Shown piece after piece: positions 4,018 through 64,000 of a stretch of DNA of 64,000 nucleotides. The DNA comes from Arthrobacter crystallopoietes. GTDB lineage: Bacteria; Actinomycetota; Actinomycetes; Actinomycetales; Micrococcaceae. Location: contig NZ_CP072014.1 in assembly GCF_017603825.1 (NCBI RefSeq), forward strand, positions 496,001 through 560,000, given 5' to 3'. The number at the start of each line of letters is the position of its first letter. The stretch's first letter is position 1. Under the pieces are notes generated by a model that saw only the letters and a program-made list of their open reading frames with translations, made no database searches and was not told the DNA's origin. Made by a program: the position numbers and the translations under genes.

Positions 4018-5426
4018 ATGAGTGTTGACCAGATCAGGACCACCGGCGCCGGGCGCGCCGGCGCTGAGGCAGATTCGCGGCTGCAGATACGTCCGGGCCG
4101 GTGGGTGGACGGCTGGGATCCGGAAGACAAGGACTTCTGGGAAACCGCAGGCCGGCCGATCGCGCGGACCAACCTGAACTGGTCCATCTTCTGCGAGTTC
4201 CTGGGCTTTGTCGTCTGGCAGTTGTGGTCGATCATGGCTGTCCAACTCCCTGCGGCAGGGTTCGACTTCACTAACTCGCAGATCTTCTGGCTGATCTCGA
4301 TTCCGAGCCTGGTCGGAGCCACCCTGCGGATTCCGTACACCTTTATGGTGCCGAAGTTCGGTGGCCGGAACTGGACCGTGATCTCCGCCCTGCTGCTCCT
4401 GGTACCGTCCATCGGGCTGGCCGCGTGCGTGGCCAATCCCGAGACGCCCTTCGGCCTGATGCTGCTGATGGCGGGTCTGGCAGGCCTTGGCGGCGGCAAC
4501 TTCGCCAGTTCGATGGCCAACATCACCTACTTCTACCCCGCGGCCGAAAAGGGCTATGCGCTGGGGCTGAACGCCGCCGGCGGAAACCTTGGCGCCGCCG
4601 TCGCGCAGTTGGTGGTGCCATTGGTGATCACGCTCGGAGCGGCCGTTTCGCTCAACCTCCCGCTGGGCGGGCTGATCTGGGTGCCGCTGATCCTGCTGGC
4701 CGCCTGGGGTGCGCGGAAGTACATGCACAATCTCTCGCACGCGAAGGGCGACGCCGCCGGTTCCGTGGCAGCCTTGCGCGAGCCGCACCTGTGGATCATG
4801 GCGTTGCTCTACATCGGCACCTTCGGCTCCTTCATCGGTTTCTCCGGTGTCTTCCCGAAGCTCATCCACGACGTCTTCCCCGGGTTCTCCTCCTTTGCTG
4901 TGGGCTCGGCCGCTCTCTCGCTGGCGTTCCTGGGCCCGCTGGTGGGATCGCTGGCCCGGCCGCTGGGCGGCAAGCTGGCGGACCGCTTCGGCGGAGCAAG
5001 GATGACGGTAGCTTCGTTCGCAACCATGGCGTTGATTGCGCTGGCCGTGGTGTGGACGCTGCCGCTGGCGAACTTCTGGCTCTTCCTGCTGCTGTTCCTG
5101 GCACTGTTCACCGCGAGCGGCTTCGGCAACGGTGCCACCTACCGGATGATCCCGCGCATCTTCGCCATCCGCGGCCGGACCGGGACGACCCGCAGCAGCG
5201 TGGACGTCGGCAGCGAGCGCAAGGCGGCTGCGGCGCTCGGTCTGGTTTCCGCCATCGGCGCTTACGGGGGCTTCCTGATTCCGCAGGTGCTCAATGCCTC
5301 CAATACGGCCACCGGCAGTTACACCGGCGCGTTCTACGGATTCGTGGCGGCCTACGCGGTGATGCTGGCGGTGGCCTGGTTCTGCTACCTGCGGCCCGGT
5401 TCCGAGATGGCGCGGGGCGGTGTCTG

Positions 5427-55454: not shown

Positions 55455-55882
55455 CTAGATGCAGGAGTAGTCGTAGTCGAAGCCGCGCGAGACGAACTGC
55501 GTGACGGACACGAAGCCGCCGGGAGTAAGCGGCGCAGAGGAGCAGTTGTTCTTGGCCCCGTTGGCTGTCCGGGCGCCGGCCAGCCAACTCGGGAGCCCCG
55601 CCAGGCTGCTGTCCGCGCTGACACGGCCAACGATCTGGCCCCACTGGACGCTGGTGGAATAGATGCCGACGTCGGCGCCGATGCTCTCGAAGTAGTCGGT
55701 CATGCCCTCCAGATCGGCGGCGTTAGCGACCTTGTCAGTCGACCAGCTATTCTCGGTTTCGACGTCGAGCCACCACAGATAGTCCTCGGGGTTGCTGATG
55801 CCGCGGATATTGGCGTCGTCGTAAGCCTTGGCCCAGCCGTACATGTAGGCGCAGGCCGCATCTTCGGCCCCGCTGCACACTG
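55455..55882 (-). pseudogene. C-terminal fragment of a glycoside-hydrolase-like (TIM-barrel) secreted protein
   Basis: The minus strand encodes about 140 residues of a GH25/Rv2525c-like glycoside-hydrolase-like domain: CAYMYGWAKAYDDA, YLWWLDVETENSW (acidic active-site pair), VGIYSTSVQWGQI and an SVTQFVSRGFDYDYSC end. The signal peptide and first half are missing. Family-like sequence stops at about 55877, where the IS110 element begins. An open frame to 56000 that could add residues is IS left-end sequence. The region right of the element does not encode the missing half in any frame I could see, so deletion accompanied or preceded insertion. Confidence 0.75.
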
Positions 55883-55894
55883 AGGAATGATGGA

Positions 55895-56095
55895 TGCCAT
55901 GTGGCAGGGGAGGGGCTCCTGACTTACCCGCTGCGTGACGGCCAGCACTGACTGCTGGAACTGTCCAGGAGGAGATATGTCGGTTCCGTTCCCCTGCCAC
56001 TCACCATGGGCGACCGGGCCGGACGGGAGATGTGACTTGATAGGAACGTGCAGCTTAGCTCTTCAGTGCTTTGTCCGCCCGGCCCGGTCCACCGT
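55895..56095 (+). ncRNA. candidate IS110 bridge RNA
   Basis: Two long hairpins fill the left end. Hairpin 1: GTGGCAGGGGA (55901-55911) with 55990-56000, enclosing a second helix (55916-55921 with 55966-55971) and a CCAGCA/TGCTGG hairpin (55942-55958). Hairpin 2: GACCGGGCCGG (56012-56022) with 56079-56089, enclosing a 56-base loop. Tandem long-stemmed loops upstream of the recombinase are what IS110-group bridge RNAs use as target- and donor-binding loops. Prediction was by eye; transcript ends are unknown. Confidence 0.5.
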
Positions 56096-56133
56096 GCTCG
56101 CCTCAACCCTTCCCTCTACCGGAATGAGAGAGC

Positions 56134-57198
56134 ATGACTCTAACAACGACACAAACGATCACTACCGTCACGATCGGTGTGGACACCCACTCTCTGGTCC
56201 ACCACGCCGCCGCACTGGATTCACTGGGGCAGGTTCTGGGCGACCGGAAGTTTTCCACGGACCTAGCCGGCTACCAGGAGCTTCTGGACTGGGCCGCCGG
56301 CTTTGGAATCATCAACGCCTTCGGAGTCGAATGCACCGGGTCTTACGGGGCAGGGCTGACGAGGCACTTGCTCGCGGCCGGTGTGGACGTCGTCGAAGTC
56401 AACCGGGGCCACGCCCTGACGCGCAGCCGGTCTGGCAAGAACGATGCCATCGACGCGGAAGAAGCCGCGCGGAAAGTCCTCTCCGGGGAATGTTCCTCGC
56501 CTGCGAAGGACACCACCGGCACGATTGAAGCCATCCGGAATCTGCATCTTGTGCGGGACTCAGCAATCAAGTCCCGCACAGCAGCACTTGTACAGCTACG
56601 CGACATCCTTGTCACCGCGCCCGGGACACTGAGGCAGCGCCTTGATGCCAAAACTCTTCAGGCAAAAGCCACGCAAGCCAGGTCGCTTCGGCCGGATTTG
56701 GATCGGCTAAACCAGCCCGAGCAGGCAGCCAAATACGCGCTGCGTGAACTCGGGCGCCGAGTTGAAGACCTCACCGCACAGATCAACGCTGCGGATAAAC
56801 ATCTGCACCGCCTCCTCCACGCCGTTGCGCCCACGGTTATGGCACTGCCCCAAGTCGGACCGGTCAGCGCCGCCCAGCTGCTGATCACGGCCGGCGAAAA
56901 CATTGAAAGATTTCCCAGCGAAGCCGCCTTCGCACGGCTCTGCGGAGTCGCTCCCGTGCCTGTCTCATCAGGTAAATCTCACCGGATGCGGCTTCACCGC
57001 GGCGGCAACCGCCAAGCCAACAGGGTCATTTACCTCATCACTGTCGGCAGGCTGAAAATCGATCCGAAATCGCAGGCATACCGTGATCGGAAAATCAGCC
57101 AGGGGCATTCCAAATCAGACGTAATCCGCAGCCTCAAACGCTACGTCGCCAGAGAGCTCTACTACGCCCTGAAGAACGATCTCTCGCAATCCGTTTGA
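56134..57198 (+). CDS. IS110-family transposase (DEDD recombinase)
   Basis: This 354-residue recombinase has an N-terminal RuvC-like DEDD domain with Asp17 (IGVDTHS), Glu66 (ECTGSYG), Asp104 and Asp107 (KNDAIDAEEAAR), a central coiled region, and a C-terminal Tnp_20 domain. The latter contains LPQVGPVSAAQLL and the catalytic-serine region PVSSGKSHRMRLHRGGNRQAN (Ser278/279). Both domains look intact and full length, so the element may be active. IS110 enzymes recombine DNA guided by an RNA from their own non-coding end. GAGAG precedes ATG 56134. Confidence 0.93.
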   Translation: MTLTTTQTITTVTIGVDTHSLVHHAAALDSLGQVLGDRKFSTDLAGYQELLDWAAGFGIINAFGVECTGSYGAGLTRHLLAAGVDVVEVNRGHALTRSRSGKNDAIDAEEAARKVLSGECSSPAKDTTGTIEAIRNLHLVRDSAIKSRTAALVQLRDILVTAPGTLRQRLDAKTLQAKATQARSLRPDLDRLNQPEQAAKYALRELGRRVEDLTAQINAADKHLHRLLHAVAPTVMALPQVGPVSAAQLLITAGENIERFPSEAAFARLCGVAPVPVSSGKSHRMRLHRGGNRQANRVIYLITVGRLKIDPKSQAYRDRKISQGHSKSDVIRSLKRYVARELYYALKNDLSQSV

Positions 57199-57320
57199 GG
57201 ATCGATTACCGGACGATCATGAGTAGTTTCTAGCGGCGACGGACATATAGTTAGGTTCGCTCATCTGAGCCAGTCGTTTATGGCTCCTTTGGTCGGGAGG
57301 CATCAGCCTAGAATCAATGG

Positions 57321-57935
57321 GTGAGCGAGCACACCATACTTCTTTGGACCATGATCGGGACCTGCGCGACTGCTGCCGCCACCATAGGGCTGGTCGTCGG
57401 AGCGTTAAAGGCATGGCAAACAGCCAAGGCAACACTGGATCAAATGAAGCATGACAGCCGCTCCCAGACACGTCCTTACGTCTTCGCCTAGATTGTGCCA
57501 AGCATCGGAGGCAATCAAGCTTGGGATCTGATCCTGCGCAATTCTGGACGGTCGGCCGCCTATGATCTGAGACTGACCGTTTCGGCTTGGCCTGAAGAAG
57601 ACATTCTGACCAAAGCCCTCCGGACGATGTTCGAAACACCCCAGACACTTCCGCCGAACACAAGCATTCGGTCTTACTGGAGTTTGGGGCCGAGCAAGCA
57701 TCCCCGATCAAGCCATCCGGTGGGTTTCGATCAACCAGTTGATCTGACGGTCACCTATAAGAGCGACAACCGTGAAGCATCCGAGTACAGGGATACGTTC
57801 CGCCTGGACTCGACGGTATTGGGCATGACACCAATGGGAGCCTCCGGTATTGAACAGCCCAACGGTGCTACCCCGCACGAAAAGAAGATGCGCGAAATTG
57901 TGCGCGCTCTCAATGAGATGCGTAGAGGAAACTGA
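57321..57935 (+). pseudogene. membrane-anchored hypothetical protein interrupted by in-frame TAG
   Basis: From GTG 57321 the frame encodes one N-terminal helix (LLWTMIGTCATAAATIGLVVGAL), a short coiled segment (KAWQTAKATLDQMKHDSRSQ) and RPYVFA, then TAG at 57489-57491. The same frame then runs without another stop to 57935 with a beta-rich domain (DLILRNSGRSAAYDLRLTVS). The helix-coil-beta layout is that of common actinobacterial hypothetical proteins with one uninterrupted frame, so TAG likely replaced GAG (Glu) or similar. Position 80 bases from the IS suggests a decaying zone. An independent start after the stop is possible but no site is evident. Confidence 0.7.
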
Positions 57936-58120
57936 ATGGCAGGCCAAAGACCGGTGTGAAAGTTAGTTCAGGACGTTGGAGTCTTCACAGTTCGGGTTGG
58001 CGGTCGCTGGTCCGATAAGCCTGATCGTCATAGAGACCTGTTTTAGTCATTCGCTGGCCGCTGCTAAATCGCGACCTTGTATGGCGATCTGAAGCGCAGT
58101 TGCTATGCAATACTGCCGAG

Positions 58121-58843
58121 GTGGAGACCTTGAAGGATCGGCACTATTGGCTTAGCGAGGCATCAGGTCCGGGCCGACCCTGGACTGTGGCTGCTGTTGC
58201 TGTGTCGATTATCGGCATCCTGTTGCTCCTACTGAGGCTGGGGACCCGGCCCGACCCTGAGCTGCTGCCCGGATATGTGGTTGTCTACGCCCTGATTGGG
58301 CTGTTCATGTTCGGCCCGGGCATCAGGGAGGTTTCCTGGGGCCAGCTGCTGGCCTTCGTCGTGCCCGGTCTTGTGATGGTGGCGTTGTGGGCGCTGGGCA
58401 CCGGCTACTGGGGCGGGCTCTGGCTGCTGGGTCTGCCGGCATGGGCCATCATCTGCCGGCGCTGGCGCAGCTACGGCAGGGGACGGCAGGCCGGAAAGCT
58501 GGCACTGTTCGTGGCGCTCCTGGCGGCGTCGTCGCTGTTCTTCGTCCTTTACGGGTTCTATCCCATCTTGGGCCTCGCCCTACTCGCCGTGGTGCCAGCG
58601 GTTCCACTGGCTCACTTCATTGCATCGCCCGGCTACAGGCACCGGCCCCTGCAGGCCGCCACGGAGTTCCTGCTGTCCTGCGCAGTCGTAGCCGTGGCTC
58701 TGACGTTGCCGGAGCTAGGTTGGACCTCGCCGGAGGGCTTCGCAAGCGCAGGGGTTTTGGTAGGGCTTTTGATGGCAGGCTGGGCAGGACGCCGCCCGAT
58801 CCAATCCTCGAACCAGCCTCATCTGGAGAACCACCAGAGGTGA
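58121..58843 (+). CDS. multi-helix membrane protein, hypothetical
   Basis: This protein of about 240 residues has six to seven membrane helices and no recognised family. Features are PGRPWTVAAVAVSIIGILLLLLRLG in the first helix, a WGGLWLLGLPAWAIICRRWRSYGRG turn and a short charged tail. The start is uncertain: GTG 58121, TTG 58130 (GGTGGAG just upstream) and TTG 58100 are all in frame. It follows the interrupted gene and begins a run of small membrane proteins. Confidence 0.65.
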   Translation: METLKDRHYWLSEASGPGRPWTVAAVAVSIIGILLLLLRLGTRPDPELLPGYVVVYALIGLFMFGPGIREVSWGQLLAFVVPGLVMVALWALGTGYWGGLWLLGLPAWAIICRRWRSYGRGRQAGKLALFVALLAASSLFFVLYGFYPILGLALLAVVPAVPLAHFIASPGYRHRPLQAATEFLLSCAVVAVALTLPELGWTSPEGFASAGVLVGLLMAGWAGRRPIQSSNQPHLENHQR

Positions 58844-58961
58844 TCTAGACTTGCACCTTTGCCGTTCCAAGTAGCGATCCTTCTGCGCGACGACTCGTAC
58901 AAGGAAAGAGGGATCAATGCTGCCCTAGGAAAAGCACAGCTGGACGTTGATAGCCTCAGCC

Positions 58962-59186
58962 ATGGCCGGTTCTGATTCAGACGCGAAATTGCGGCGACCC
59001 CTCCTCAATGCTTCCTTTGCCTTGGGCATGGCTCTTGTGGGCTCCGGCATGTTTTTGGCGTCGCTGATGATGAGCGTTCCTCTAACCGGAACGGCTTTCA
59101 ACCTGGCCTGGATACTGGTGACGGTGGGGCTTTGCATGGCTCTTTTCTGGCTGGTTGTCTACCGGCGTGTCATGCGAAGGAGATAG
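58962..59186 (+). CDS. small two-helix membrane protein
   Basis: This gene encodes 74 residues with two hydrophobic helices (about 17-36 and 47-67) and a basic C-terminus VVYRRVMRRR. No family is recognised. ATG 58962 is the first good start; there is no obvious ribosome site. Basic residues after the second helix fit an N-in/C-in topology. Confidence 0.5.
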   Translation: MAGSDSDAKLRRPLLNASFALGMALVGSGMFLASLMMSVPLTGTAFNLAWILVTVGLCMALFWLVVYRRVMRRR

Positions 59187-59252
59187 CGCCCGTCCCGTTG
59201 GCGAATGCCTTCAATGAAACTGAGGTTATGAAACATCGATCGGAGGACACCA

Positions 59253-59456
59253 ATGAACACCCGAGGATTTCCCGACGTGGGGGGTGTAGTAGTAGGTCTC
59301 GTCACAGGAACGGCTGCTTTATTCACACCCGTCTCGACGCCAGGCTGGGTGACTTTTAAAATCGTGCTGGTGGTTGCGACTTTTGGATTCGCCGCCGCCA
59401 ATCTCATCGGACTACTCATAAAACGTCGCCGCTCTCGTAGGGACAGACAGGCCTAG
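59253..59456 (+). CDS. small two-helix membrane protein with basic tail
   Basis: This gene encodes 67 residues with two hydrophobic segments (about 10-30 and 33-55) and a C-terminal KRRRSRRDRQ. No family is recognised. CGGAGG sits 7 bases before ATG 59253, which supports translation. It differs in sequence from its upstream neighbour but shares size and layout. Confidence 0.6.
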   Translation: MNTRGFPDVGGVVVGLVTGTAALFTPVSTPGWVTFKIVLVVATFGFAAANLIGLLIKRRRSRRDRQA

Positions 59457-59595
59457 CCGCATAGCGAAAGTGCCCGTTGAAGGGATCCTTTACCGTGCGT
59501 CTAGAGCGTCCGGTCGGCCACCGACCAGGACACTTTCTCGCCGGCCCTGGCCGCGACAAGGGTAAAGAACCATTCGTCATCCCCCGGCTTGCAGG

Positions 59596-59640
59596 TTGCA
59601 TACTCCGTATGCAAGTATTCAGATGCTAGATACTGAGTAT
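59596..59640 (+). promoter_or_regulatory. PadR-type operator upstream of the ABC exporter operon
   Basis: TTGCATAC-TCC-GTATGCAA (59596-59614) is a perfect palindrome with 8-bp arms, and ATACT-G-AGTAT (59630-59640) is a second perfect palindrome 15 bases on. Both share the core ATAC/GTAT and lie 21-65 bases before the PadR ATG. PadR repressors often bind their own promoters at such sites. Confidence 0.7.
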
Positions 59641-59660
59641 GCATTTCTAAGGGGTCGGTC

Positions 59661-60290
59661 ATGTCGGTGCGTCACGGGTTATTGGCCTTGTTGGGGGAGC
59701 GGCCGCGTTACGGCTACCAGTTGAGGGCCGAGTTTGAGCAACGAACGGGCTCAACCTGGCCGCTCAACGTTGGCCAGGTCTACAGCACGCTGGACCGTCT
59801 GGAACGGGACGGTCTGGTGGCTAACGACGGTGACGACGGTGAAGGCCATGTGATGTACCGGCTGACCCCGGCAGGCGCGGCGGAGGTTGATCAGTGGTTT
59901 TCGCAACCGGTGACCATGACCAACCCACCCCGGAACGAGCTGGCCATCAAACTGGCCCTGGCAGTCACGCTGCCGGGGGTGGATGTTGCCCGGTTGGTCC
60001 AGGCCCAACGCACGGCCTCGATCCGGTCGCTGCAGAACTACAACAAGGCCAGGCGCGACACCGCTGCGGCCGGCCGGGTCGACGACACGGCCTGGCTGCT
60101 GGTGCTGGACTCGCTGATCTTCAGCACCGAGGCCGAAGTGCGCTGGCTGGATCACTGCGAATCGCGGCTGACCCAGCTGGCCAAGGATGCATCCGGTATC
60201 GGCAACGGTGTCCGGCCCCTGCACCAGGGGCCGGACACCCGACAGGCAGCAGCCGGCGCCTCAGCGGCAACCACGGAACGGAAGGGCTGA
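59661..60290 (+). CDS. PadR-family transcriptional regulator
   Basis: This 209-residue PadR regulator has an N-terminal winged helix (residues 1-90) with LLALLGERPRYGYQLRAEFEQRTGSTWPLNVGQVYSTLDRLERDGLV and a C-terminal Vir_act_alpha_C helical dimerisation region (about 95-175). An extra 30-residue tail rich in Ala/Gly/Thr is present. AAGGGG precedes ATG 59661. It is the first gene of a three-gene exporter operon and probably represses it through the palindromes just upstream. Confidence 0.9.
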   Translation: MSVRHGLLALLGERPRYGYQLRAEFEQRTGSTWPLNVGQVYSTLDRLERDGLVANDGDDGEGHVMYRLTPAGAAEVDQWFSQPVTMTNPPRNELAIKLALAVTLPGVDVARLVQAQRTASIRSLQNYNKARRDTAAAGRVDDTAWLLVLDSLIFSTEAEVRWLDHCESRLTQLAKDASGIGNGVRPLHQGPDTRQAAAGASAATTERKG

Positions 60291-60295
60291 CCGTC

Positions 60296-61018
60296 ATGCC
60301 GGAAGCTTTGCAACTGGCCGGAGTGTGCCGAACCTACGGAGAAGGCGCCACGGCGGTCGCGGCCCTGCGCGACGTGGACCTGACAATCCACACCGGTGAA
60401 TTCATCGCGGTAATGGGACCGTCCGGTTCCGGGAAATCCTCGCTCCTCTCCATTGCCGGCGGCCTGGACCGGCCGACCGCGGGGGACGTGTATGTCGGAT
60501 CAGTGCCGTTGGCGAAACTGGACCAGGACGGGCTGGCGCAGCTGCGCCGCCGCTCGGTCGGCTACGTTTTCCAGGACTTCAACCTCATTCCGACGCTGAC
60601 CGCGGCCGAGAATGTGGCCCTGCCACGCGAACTCGATGGAGTCCCGCTGCGCAAGGCACGAAGGCAGGCCGTCGATGCGCTGCGCCAGGTGGGCATTGAA
60701 CACCTCGCCGGACGTTTCATGGACCAGCTTTCCGGCGGGCAGCAGCAACGGGTTGCCATCGCGCGCGCCATTGTTGGTGACCGCCGGCTAATCCTGGCTG
60801 ACGAACCGACCGGAGCGTTGGACTCCGCGACCGGGGACGAGATCCTCTCGGTCCTGCGTGCCAGAGCTGATGCCGGCTGCGCCGTCATGCTCGTGACCCA
60901 TGAGGCACGACATGCTGCCTGGGCAGACCGGGTCGTGTTCATCCGCGACGGACGGATAATCGATGAATCGGCGCCTGCCCGGAATCCTGCCGATCTCCTC
61001 TCGGGAAGCTGGCAATGA
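60296..61018 (+). CDS. ABC transporter ATP-binding protein (LolD/MacB type)
   Basis: This 240-residue ABC ATPase has Walker A GPSGSGKSS (about 40), Q-loop FQDFNLIPTLTAAENV, signature LSGGQQQRVAIARAI, Walker B LILADEPTGALD and the switch His (VTHE). The TAxENVxLP pattern after the Q-loop is that of LolD/MacB-type ATPases that drive FtsX-like permeases. ATG 60296 has GAAGGG upstream; the wider frame is a shadow of padR. Its stop overlaps the permease ATG by four bases. Confidence 0.93.
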   Translation: MPEALQLAGVCRTYGEGATAVAALRDVDLTIHTGEFIAVMGPSGSGKSSLLSIAGGLDRPTAGDVYVGSVPLAKLDQDGLAQLRRRSVGYVFQDFNLIPTLTAAENVALPRELDGVPLRKARRQAVDALRQVGIEHLAGRFMDQLSGGQQQRVAIARAIVGDRRLILADEPTGALDSATGDEILSVLRARADAGCAVMLVTHEARHAAWADRVVFIRDGRIIDESAPARNPADLLSGSWQ

Positions 61019-63753
61019 AACGCACACCGGCCCGACGCCGAAATTCGATACAGCTCTCCCGGTTGTCGTTCCGCCTTGCCTGGAGGGACATCCTGGCGCA
61101 CCGGGCCCGCAGCCTGCTGATTGTCGCCCTGATTGCACTTCCGGTCGCAGCACTTGCCGCTGCCGCCACGGTAGCGGCCAGCACACAGCCGCTACCGCAG
61201 GAAACAGCCCAGCGCGAACTCGGGCAGACACAGGCAAGGCTCTCGGTAGCCGATGGGTACCCGTTGCCGTTGACCCAGCATCCGCTGAACGAATCGCTGA
61301 TTCTCGGCATCGGAGAAGCTGACCCTGATCTGGTTCCGGCTAGCCTCGACGCCGCCGCTCCGGACGGGCACGCCACACTGACCGAATCACTGGGTGCCGT
61401 TGATGTGCTCAAGGGCGAAGTCCCGGTTTCTGTGGAACTCGCTGCCGTGGACGCCCTCGACCCCGCCTTTGCCGGCAAATACGAACTCGCCGATGGTGCA
61501 GCCCCCGGAGCCGGGGAAGTGCTGGCCAGCCAGGGCCTCATGGAGCGACTGGGCATCGGCGTCGGGGACCGGATCAACACTGCCGATGGCAGTTACACCG
61601 TCAGCGGTGTTCTGCACCAGACGGGTGTGTTGAAATCGGCCGAGGTCCTGTACGTGGCCCCCGCCCATCCACTCTCCGACTTCGCCGACCGGGACCGGCT
61701 GTACCTCGCCGGCGATGCTCCCCTCGCATGGGCGGAAGTTCGAGCCCTCAACAGGGTCGGCGTTGTCGCCTTGTCCCGTGCCGTTATCATGAATCCGCCC
61801 GCCGCCGAAGACTATGCCGACTTCGGCGCACTCTCCTCGACGATCAAACCCGAGATGGTGCTGCTGGGCGCAGTCGCAGGACTCCTTGCACTGGCCGAGA
61901 CCACTATGCTCGCAGGCGCTGCCTTCGCTGTCGGAGTGCGGAAACAACGCCGCGCCCTCGCCCTCCTTTCGGCTACCGGTGCCGAGGCCTCCAGACTCCA
62001 GGGCGTAGTCCTGAGCTCCGGCATCATCCTCGGCGGCATCGCGGGTTTCGGCGGTGCAGTTCTGGGTCTCGGTTTGGCTTGGCTCACCACGACGGCATTC
62101 CATGCCGCGGATGTACTGCCAATTCCCGGCTATCACGTTCCCTGGCCGGCGCTGGCCCTGATCGCACTGCTGGGCACTGTTGCAGCCCTCATCGCGGCTC
62201 TGGTTCCCGCCCGGGCGGTCGCCCGCCAGGACGCGTTCGCGGCGCTACGCAGTTCCCAGGCCCCGCCCCAGCAGCCTGCACGGATCAGAACCGCCCTGGT
62301 CTTGCTCACCACGGCACTGGTTTCGGGCAGCGCGGGCGGCCTGCTGGCAGCCGGTGGCTCGGCAACGAGCGGGTCGCTACGGTTCGTAGTCAGCCTCGTT
62401 GCCCTCGGATCAGCGGCACTGTGCCTGTTGCTCGGGCTTGTCATGCTGACCGGGCGGGTCCTCGAAACGGTTGCCTCACTCGCCGGCCGGCTTCCCGTCC
62501 CGCTGCGCATGGCCGCCCGTGATGCGACACGGAACCGGGCCCGCAGCGTGCCCTCCATCGCGGCAATTCTGGCAGCCACTGCCATGGCAACACTGGCCAT
62601 GACCGGAACAGCCGCCTTCTATGAAAAGGCCAAGAACGACCATCACTGGACCCTGCAGGAAACAGACGCCGTCCTCGGACTGCAGCAACTAGAGGAACCA
62701 GCATCGCCCGGACAGGCCGGAACACTTGAACAACTCGACCACCAACCTCTCCTCGACGCCGTCGAGGACGTCATGGGACCAGTGCACCAATCCATGATCA
62801 TCAGTTCCGTCATGAGTGCCTGCACCGACTTATACAACTGCACCCAGTACCAGATGGCCATACCGGAAACGAACACCTGCCCTCAACCAGACGGCACCGC
62901 CCCTGATCCCGCTGACTGGAGGTGCGCCGACGCGCCGACAGGAGCCTCCGGTTTCCCACAGCTGTTGGTCGGGGGCGAGTCCGAACTTGCAGCACTGCTC
63001 GGAAAGGAACCCGATGCTCAAACGCTGAGCGCACTGGAAACGGGAAGCGCCGTGCTGCTCAACCCGGTATATGAAGACAGCGGCAAGGCGACCATCGAGG
63101 TGATTGACCCCAGCGGCGGCGGAGCGATTGGTGAGAAGCTCGGCCCCTCTGTCGTCGAGTCCCATGAGCTGAACGCATTCCTGACAGAAGGCGTGCGCGA
63201 CATCGATGTCATGGGCATGATCTCTCCCCAGACCGCCGACGAACTCGGCATCCCCACATGGGACTACGGGCTGTGGGTAGACATGGAACGCACACCGACC
63301 ACGGACGAAGCAGATCGGGTCCAGCAGCAACTGGCATCCACCAACAGCACCAACACCCCCTTTGCCTATGAACCCGGACCACCGGCCGGCTCGCAAATAA
63401 TCGCGTGGTCTGTTGCGGCGTTCGCTGCCCTGGTTGCACTCACTGCAGCCGGCATCACCGCCGGGCTCGCCCTCGCCGACGGTCGGGCAGACCAGACGAC
63501 CCTTGCCGGCGTTGGGGCTGCACCACGGATGCGGAAAGCACTTGCAGCCGCCCAAAGTCTGCTGACCTCAGGGATAGGAGGAACGCTGGGCGTCGTGGCC
63601 GGGCTGCTGCCGGCCATCGCCATCCTGGCTCTCATCCGGGACTACAGCGTTATCGTCCCCTGGGCCCAAGTCATCGCCGTCCTCATCGTCGTCCCACTCC
63701 TCGGAGCCGTAGCCGCCTGGCTATCCACACGCTCCCTTCCACAGATGCGCTGA
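61015..63753 (+). CDS. FtsX-like ABC transporter permease, large
   Basis: This 912-residue permease has about ten membrane helices and two FtsX domains: one at about 280-400 (LLGAVAGLLALAETTMLAGAAFAVGV) and one at the C-terminus (about 795-905). A first extracytoplasmic domain spans about 50-270. A second (about 530-790) contains a Cys-bearing loop (CTDLYNC, then two more Cys, near 602-640) that could form disulfides. Such actinobacterial exporters with a PadR regulator often export peptides or give antibiotic resistance; the cargo is unknown. The gene is full length. Confidence 0.9.
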   Translation: MKRTPARRRNSIQLSRLSFRLAWRDILAHRARSLLIVALIALPVAALAAAATVAASTQPLPQETAQRELGQTQARLSVADGYPLPLTQHPLNESLILGIGEADPDLVPASLDAAAPDGHATLTESLGAVDVLKGEVPVSVELAAVDALDPAFAGKYELADGAAPGAGEVLASQGLMERLGIGVGDRINTADGSYTVSGVLHQTGVLKSAEVLYVAPAHPLSDFADRDRLYLAGDAPLAWAEVRALNRVGVVALSRAVIMNPPAAEDYADFGALSSTIKPEMVLLGAVAGLLALAETTMLAGAAFAVGVRKQRRALALLSATGAEASRLQGVVLSSGIILGGIAGFGGAVLGLGLAWLTTTAFHAADVLPIPGYHVPWPALALIALLGTVAALIAALVPARAVARQDAFAALRSSQAPPQQPARIRTALVLLTTALVSGSAGGLLAAGGSATSGSLRFVVSLVALGSAALCLLLGLVMLTGRVLETVASLAGRLPVPLRMAARDATRNRARSVPSIAAILAATAMATLAMTGTAAFYEKAKNDHHWTLQETDAVLGLQQLEEPASPGQAGTLEQLDHQPLLDAVEDVMGPVHQSMIISSVMSACTDLYNCTQYQMAIPETNTCPQPDGTAPDPADWRCADAPTGASGFPQLLVGGESELAALLGKEPDAQTLSALETGSAVLLNPVYEDSGKATIEVIDPSGGGAIGEKLGPSVVESHELNAFLTEGVRDIDVMGMISPQTADELGIPTWDYGLWVDMERTPTTDEADRVQQQLASTNSTNTPFAYEPGPPAGSQIIAWSVAAFAALVALTAAGITAGLALADGRADQTTLAGVGAAPRMRKALAAAQSLLTSGIGGTLGVVAGLLPAIAILALIRDYSVIVPWAQVIAVLIVVPLLGAVAAWLSTRSLPQMR

Positions 63754-64000
63754 TGCCCATGCCTGACCCTGCGCAGACGCGCGTACAAACAAGGTTCCGA
63801 AATTAGAATGGCCATCGGCGCCAGACCCGGCGCTGCCGTAGAGGAGAAGAAATCCGCTGTACTTGGCGTCGAGGAATAGGCTGCGCCATCTACCGCTGCG
63901 CTAGTGCGCCAGAATGTCCCGTAACCTGATCCTCCAGCGTGCCCTGCTTGTAACCCCAGTAGTCACACGAACATTGTGGGCTTACCCTGAATGCCGCCGC

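Follow-up and report, generated by a model that had tools for sequence, protein, structure and literature searches.

The window analysed here, a stretch of 64,000 nucleotides of Arthrobacter crystallopoietes, contains the left end of what we consider, at a probability of roughly 85%, to be an 18,120-bp transposon of the IS110 group with a bridge RNA and with cargo between the enzyme and the right end. The right end lies about 10 kb beyond the window, 16.8 kb downstream of the stop codon of the transposase. The positions of the features are collected in Table 1.

Boundaries and insertion site of the element

The element interrupts a host gene, with the 3' part of that gene forming the left flank and the other half restarting at G000:C1:569998, 18.1 kb to the right. 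The split gene probably encodes a secreted protein; its fragment frame gave no Pfam match. The target gene is uninterrupted in three genomes of the same genus (G105, G151 and G163). In two of these empty sites (L093 and L094) the two 100-base flanks of the window element align to adjacent positions, in register and with zero gap, while in the third (L095) the alignment of the right flank begins at its fifth base, with the rest at the place expected for a gapless junction. Since the flanks are in register without a gap in all three empty sites, the insertion, 18,120 bp in length, left no scar, and the flank alignments with the three relatives show no target-site duplication. The core common to both junctions is a single C (position 55878), which is also the only base that they have in common with the target, and the next base differs (CA on the left, CT on the right). 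The right junction, at G000:C1:569997/569998, reads GACTTGCCTATAGGAACAT up to the boundary and CTCCCCGTAAGG beyond it.

The left non-coding end measures 256 nt (55878-56133), and the right end carries a motif of about 20 nt, which is conserved but distal. The element is present in single copy in its genome (4.38 Mb), with one motif of the donor-binding loop (DBL) and one right-end motif. The recombinase gave a remote sequence match to the ISCro4 and IS621 recombinases of known structure. Judged from its sequence, the element is predicted to form a circle and may be active at present.

These boundaries bear on several claims of an earlier note on this DNA. A short right end next to the transposase, as proposed there, did not hold up, as the sequence straight after the coding sequence is not the end of the element and the true end is found 16.8 kb downstream. 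The assignment of the ends to the IS110 group fits the long structured left end and the short right-end motif, but not a right end positioned directly behind the gene. Likewise, the suggested full-length system is borne out by the intact recombinase frame and the existence of both ends, but at 18.1 kb and with its right end outside the window it is not compact.

Other positions of the right end were considered and rejected. For a right end immediately behind the stop codon, 14 downstream sequences were compared and contained no common motif; among those 14, L006 and L034 are alike throughout (98% over 1.2 kb), and L037 and L077 resemble each other further down (72-78%). A donor-left motif in the last codons (KKDL) was a candidate until the distal motif was found, and the end of the 8.5-kb block common to G255 and G192 was dismissed because the edge of the block is the end of a gene.

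Table 1. Features of the element and its insertion site (window positions unless a contig is named).
Feature	Position	Strand	Remarks
Split host gene, 3' part	55455..55877	-	Uninterrupted in relatives
Inserted element	55878..64000, on to G000:C1:569997 (= window position 73997)	+	18,120 bp in total
Left element end, right-donor (RD) sequence CACTGAGGAATG	55878..55889	+	Start conserved in relatives; complementary to RDG 56060-56069
Candidate -10 (AATGAT)	55886..55891	+	With right-end TTGCCT as -35, spacer 18; would form only in the circle
Predicted bridge RNA	55898..56090	+	About 193 nt, both ends predicted
Target-binding loop (TBL) hairpin	55901..56000	+	Outer stem GTGGCAGGGGA, 55901-55911 with 55990-56000
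Left target guide (LTG) ACCCGCTGCG	55926..55935	+	Target left side CCCCGCTGCA; 8 identical + 1 wobble of 10
Right target guide (RTG) GGAGGAG	55968..55974	+	Target right side CTCCCCG; first 4 paired, 5/7
Donor-binding loop (DBL) hairpin	56012..56089	+	Outer stem GACCGGGCCGG, 56012-56022 with 56079-56089
Left donor guide (LDG) GATAGGAACGT	56039..56049	+	Right end TATAGGAACAT; 9/11 identical + 1 wobble
Right donor guide (RDG) TCTTCAGTGC	56060..56069	+	Left end CACTGAGGA; 8 pairs + 1 wobble of 9; conserved
IS110 (DEDD) recombinase	56134..57198	+	354 aa, frame intact; PF01548 + PF02371, both above curated cut-off
Cargo: PadR-type regulator	59661..60290	+	PF03551, PF10400
Cargo: ABC transporter ATPase	60293..61018	+	PF00005; start codon provisional
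Cargo: FtsX/MacB-like permease	61015..63753	+	912 aa; PF02687

The predicted bridge RNA and its guides

The folded stretch of the left end is very probably the guide (bridge) RNA of the mobile element, for which transcription and binding by the recombinase are predicted. The region 55880-56110 folds at -109.2 kcal/mol, compared with -89.8 (sd 5.05) for shuffled sequences (z -3.84, with 0 of 200 shuffles as stable), and its minimum-energy fold contains both of the perfect 11-bp stems, which lie exactly where the earlier note had put them. An Rfam search gave no gathering-score match for the bridge RNA region, the sole such match being a tRNA. Upstream (5') of the TBL there is just a 4-bp hairpin in the predicted fold, and no evident IS621-like 5' stem-loop. 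The left ends of the close relatives, which can be aligned from about CACTGAGG to the gene, each have the TBL hairpin first and the DBL hairpin second. In the TBL the left target guide follows a TGACTT motif, which shows small variants, and the right target guide lies within a GGAGA..TGTC segment; in the DBL this TGACTT is found again ahead of the LDG, and the RDG is complementary to the first bases of the element.

Compensatory changes are present in the TBL stem. With the structure taken from the fold of the window, 92.1% of the cells are paired in 22 TBL hairpins, and 16 cells changed on both sides compare with 6.6 in shuffles (0/500 reach 16) and seven pairs with such changes with 3.5 (3/500 reach 7), although related sequences can exceed shuffles; sliding one arm lowers the pairing to 36-59%. 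As the outer stem of the DBL is almost invariant within the close clade, covariation is only weakly tested there. Across three clades (28 distinct rows) 69.9% of the DBL cells are paired, a figure confused by a register shift in the group of 28-37% identity, and covariation appears weak: 21 cells are changed on both sides vs 9.6 in shuffles (0/500), but there is no excess of pairs with changes on both sides (five, reached by 111/500 shuffles), and one slid register surpasses the true one in such pairs (6 vs 5).

The donor loop is complementary to both ends of the element, the LDG to the right end and the RDG to the left end, and the match of the LTG to the left target is at a pairing level (9/10) that is reached by 59 of the 63,990 10-mers in the window. 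For 18 insertions the LTG matches with their own guides sum to 141, against a mean of 131.8 for permuted sites (p 0.009), a set that includes three copies of the Sphe3 element, in which some insertions have identical guides or homologous targets and not all are independent; an earlier scoring on 13 insertions gave p 0.0003. The match is poor for MN0502 (4/10, or 5/9 in the earlier scoring) and reaches just 6/10 in OV608 and G391a, while the G263 LTG has 4/10 in the fixed register and 7 + 2 wobbles of 9 in a freer one. With regard to the right targets, 11/13 begin with CTCC, the exceptions being OV608 (CACTGAGG) and G192 (CTCA); beyond this constant CTCC the agreement between RTG and right target was not above that of permuted pairs (p 0.25, n=13; 0.36 and 0.54 earlier). 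Several targets (L145, L146, L147, L148, L150, L082) are GC-rich inverted repeats, e.g. GGCGGCGGCC..GGCCGCCGCC, and look terminator- or REP-like.

The 8-mer of each locus's own LDG was also sought near the stop codon in 44 comparator loci, and was found at -4 to +12 nt of it in 34 of these (at most one mismatch): 20 are exact, and the 14 with one mismatch belong to the group of 28-37% identity, where several are copies in one genome. Six of the remaining ten loci have their own LDG at 269 to 2,347 nt behind the gene. The letters of LDG and right end change together between clades (ATAGGAAC, ATAGGACC, ATAGGAGC, ATAGGGGC).

The reading of this stretch as a bridge RNA with a target and a donor loop, already put forward in the earlier note, is thus upheld by homology, by architecture, by the donor and left-target guides and by the covariation of the TBL stem; for the right target guide, agreement was seen in the constant CTCC and no further. 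Of the compensatory changes that it had suggested looking for in both stems, those of the TBL were found, but the DBL stem is near-invariant in the close clade and covaries weakly across clades.

We propose that excision joins the two ends, so that the right end would supply the -35 and the left end the -10, and that the left end would then be transcribed into a bridge RNA of about 190 nt. The TBL would recognise a target of the type CCCGCTGC..CTCC and the DBL the joined element ends (TATAGGAACAT + CACTGAGGA), upon which the recombinase would insert the circle without target duplication. An enzyme that reads no more than short sequences at the ends would not require the right end to adjoin the gene, and cargo could be carried in between. 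A TTGNCT in the right end and -10-like letters in the left end would be 17 or 18 bases apart when joined in 12 of 12 elements, but the scores of this candidate promoter mostly do not exceed those of shuffles (1 to 197 of 300 shuffles score as well, 31 for the window element), and they clearly do so in only one element.

A second TBL hairpin, further upstream, is found in 6 of 16 elements (pASPHE301, M2012083, OV608, CM16, G391a and G387), giving an architecture of two TBL hairpins before one DBL. The left target fits the first loop in CM16 (10/10 vs 6/10), pASPHE301 (8 vs 6) and, slightly, G387 (9 vs 8), and the second loop in M2012083 (9/10 vs 6/10) and in the Sphe3 copies on pASPHE302 (9/10 vs 6/10) and the chromosome (8 vs 6); in OV608 and G391a neither loop fits well (6 and 6). 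The right targets are mixed overall: the first loop fits better in G391a (7/7 vs 5) and in the Sphe3 chromosome copy (6 vs 5, opposite to its left target), the second in M2012083 (6 vs 5) and OV608 (5 vs 3), and the two are tied in pASPHE301 and G387. These matches are suggestive of both target loops being used in two-loop elements, and a duplicated target loop that proves functional would make the bridge RNA naturally multi-target. That the Micrococcaceae clade is one of RNA-guided cargo transposons, with circles reaching at least 18 kb that move genes for metal resistance, transport and catabolism, and in which a sub-branch with two TBLs and one DBL chooses two target classes, is a tentative reading, to which we give somewhat less than an even chance.

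Relatives, distal right ends and rival explanations

Relatives were sought by protein search, which gave matches in 35 of 295 genomes of the family (E up to 1e-60), and at 1e-95 in 2/10 genomes of the same genus, its own genome counted, and in 7/38 of another genus. The family searched is probably the Micrococcaceae, G304 having a plasmid in common with Arthrobacter sp. MN05-02 (AP018698). Genome contigs contain 42 loci, mostly distant, while on plasmids three records at 60-80% identity were found among 1,272 matches and three records have a similar left end; viral contigs contained no exact copy of the DBL motif and one distant transposase. The close set consists of 16 distinct elements, including that of the window, with about 72-86% protein identity where the transposase is present; identical copies were counted once, and G221:C34 was left out because its left end is cut by the end of the contig.

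The right-end motif was searched for with right-end sequences taken from more distant relatives. Downstream of the transposase and in the same orientation, CTATAGGAACAT followed by CTC (CAC in OV608) is present in 12 of the 16 distinct elements, and the 20-base motif (at most two mismatches) in 14/16 records, of which G304/W03 and G310/G337 hold the same sequence twice; a reversed control had 0 matches. No right end was found for G221:C1, G310, CM16 and G391b within the sequence stretches examined. The stretch between gene and right end is shortest in G387 (about 0.5 kb) and longest in the window element (16.8 kb), lengths that rest on an approximate gene end and, for G255, on the nearer of two right ends, and its cargo differs between elements. 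Given the motif in 12/16 close elements and the own LDG at 269-2,347 nt behind the gene elsewhere, a distal right end is the rule in the close clade as far as seen, and occurs in other clades. In a separate branch of about 40% identity, six elements (L194-L199) have 269-2,347 nt between the gene and the right end, which suggests that the feature arose more than once or is older.

Evidence for movement comes from strain Sphe3 (P. phenanthrenivorans, which we infer to be G395), in which a 4.07-kb element is present in the chromosome and on pASPHE301 at 99.8% identity, with flanks that differ on both sides. With 99.8% identical copies at two sites, this element has moved as a unit; beyond the predicted ends the alignment of the copies runs on for 19 and 9 bases, over letters in which the two targets resemble each other. 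The flanks of a further copy on pASPHE302 resemble those on pASPHE301, and its right end probably spans the start of the record. Both the chromosomal and the pASPHE301 copy have a gene annotated in the plasmid record as an IS256 family transposase inside the element (L145:4956-6275). G255 and G192 share 8.5 kb at 88.7%, a block made up of the left end, the transposase and some 7 kb of cargo, and have different left targets. The transposases of OV608, G263, G192 and CM16 are split in tblastn, and so part of the clade looks broken.

Other histories of the window element have to be weighed against a cargo-carrying transposon. A short IS110 element may have lost its own right end and been joined, by deletion or homologous recombination, to that of another copy in the same target, in which case the 18 kb would have been assembled in place and never moved whole. 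Such joining could account for the two right ends behind one transposase in G255:C32 (at 11018 and 25205) and G221:C34 (at 1580 and 3535, whose right targets agree in their first 18 letters), and for right ends lacking an adjacent close-clade transposase (G105:C35, G310:C9, G221:C30). We nevertheless regard it as unlikely, with one DBL motif and one right-end motif in the genome of the window, the common 8.5 kb of G255 and G192 lying behind different left targets, and the Sphe3 element having moved as a unit.

The element could also be defective or domesticated, its left end and enzyme being preserved only through recent arrival and its bridge RNA no longer working. Although its single copy, the mismatches in its RTG and the split transposases in four relatives would fit such a state, the unbroken frame of 354 aa, the intact ends and conserved guides, and the 99.8% identical relative at two sites leave this only a minor chance. 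Stable hairpins ahead of transposase genes can block read-through, and the two hairpins might be mere attenuators, terminators or palindromes that guide nothing; since the letters of the loops fit not only the two ends of the element but also the left target, and in other clades vary in step with the right end, we consider this very improbable. The reading as a cargo-carrying transposon with a bridge RNA is preferred.

Right-end motifs were also observed in pairs without a recognised left end between them: at 1580 and 3535 in L090 (G221:C34), 1,955 bp apart and with the same right target, and about 14.2 kb apart in L139 (G255:C32; 1018/15205) and L140 (G221:C30; 154/14334), hinting at stacked or merged elements. 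In L142 (G105:C35, at 10360) and L143 (G310:C9, at 4614) a right-end motif is present but no transposase of the close clade was seen in the stretch read, and L141 (G221:C36, motif at 4143) has only a 57% transposase fragment. Finally, the left end at L186:11247-11460 (G391:C11) has a single TBL and a DBL but no transposase match in the 20-kb stretch, and is either an orphan end or a non-autonomous element.

Known systems and cargo

IS117 belongs to the IS110 family. This 2.5-kb minicircle of Streptomyces coelicolor has three ORFs (orf1, 2, 3) and a circular form (PMC2194683), and is thus a precedent for more than one gene per IS110-family element, although it is far smaller than the window element, and the portions of that paper drawn on here mention neither resistance or transport genes nor a bridge RNA. 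As a multi-ORF element of the family is already known, the novelty lies in large cargo-carrying bridge-RNA transposons, some of them in this clade perhaps with two target guides. In the literature searched, mostly open-access journal papers, we found no report of natural IS110 elements with large cargo.

The window element resembles IS621 and the IS110 group, as described in the parts of PMC11208160 used here, in the domains of the recombinase, an RNA in the long left end before the gene, a target loop followed by a donor loop, guides on both sides of the loops and a joined-end promoter (here a candidate). It differs from IS621 in that 16.8 kb, including cargo, separate the gene from the right end, and no clear 5' stem-loop is seen in it. 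In the IS1111 group the RNA is located in the right end and the inverted repeats, of 7-17 bp, are subterminal; the window element has its structured RNA in the left end. For the seekRNA systems ISEc11 and ISEc21, RNA-guided IS1111/IS110 movement is described, and a cargo gene placed between the ends moves as well; that cargo was added by the authors (PMC11187229, in the parts cited), whereas that of the window element is natural.

The boundary search of Durrant et al. 2024 took the coding sequence with 1,000 bp at each flank as its starting point (PMC11208160), and we infer that elements with a distal right end would probably have been missed; cargo-bearing IS110 elements can escape any survey that sets out from 1 kb around the gene. 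Bridge recombinases are under development as programmable genome editors, and the IS110 elements in the cited parts of these papers are compact; a clade in which the enzyme and the right end are separated by about 0.5 to 16.8 kb of other DNA shows which payloads nature may move by this chemistry.

The cargo of the relatives, with functions assigned by family name only, includes an arsenic-type set in G263 (ArsB, two low-molecular-weight phosphatases, two pyridine-nucleotide oxidoreductases and a MerR regulator), a P-type ATPase, DUF305 proteins and a ZIP transporter in G255, universal stress, CBS, DUF1538 and Na/H exchanger proteins in G311, and ornithine cyclodeaminase, a protein of the proline racemase family and TetR in MN0502. 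Arsenic- and metal-type gene clusters may travel in this way in soil actinobacteria. Of the ten cargo frames of the window put to Pfam, seven gave no match. One cargo frame, at 57301-57935, has an in-frame TAG near 57490 and is possibly a broken membrane-protein gene.
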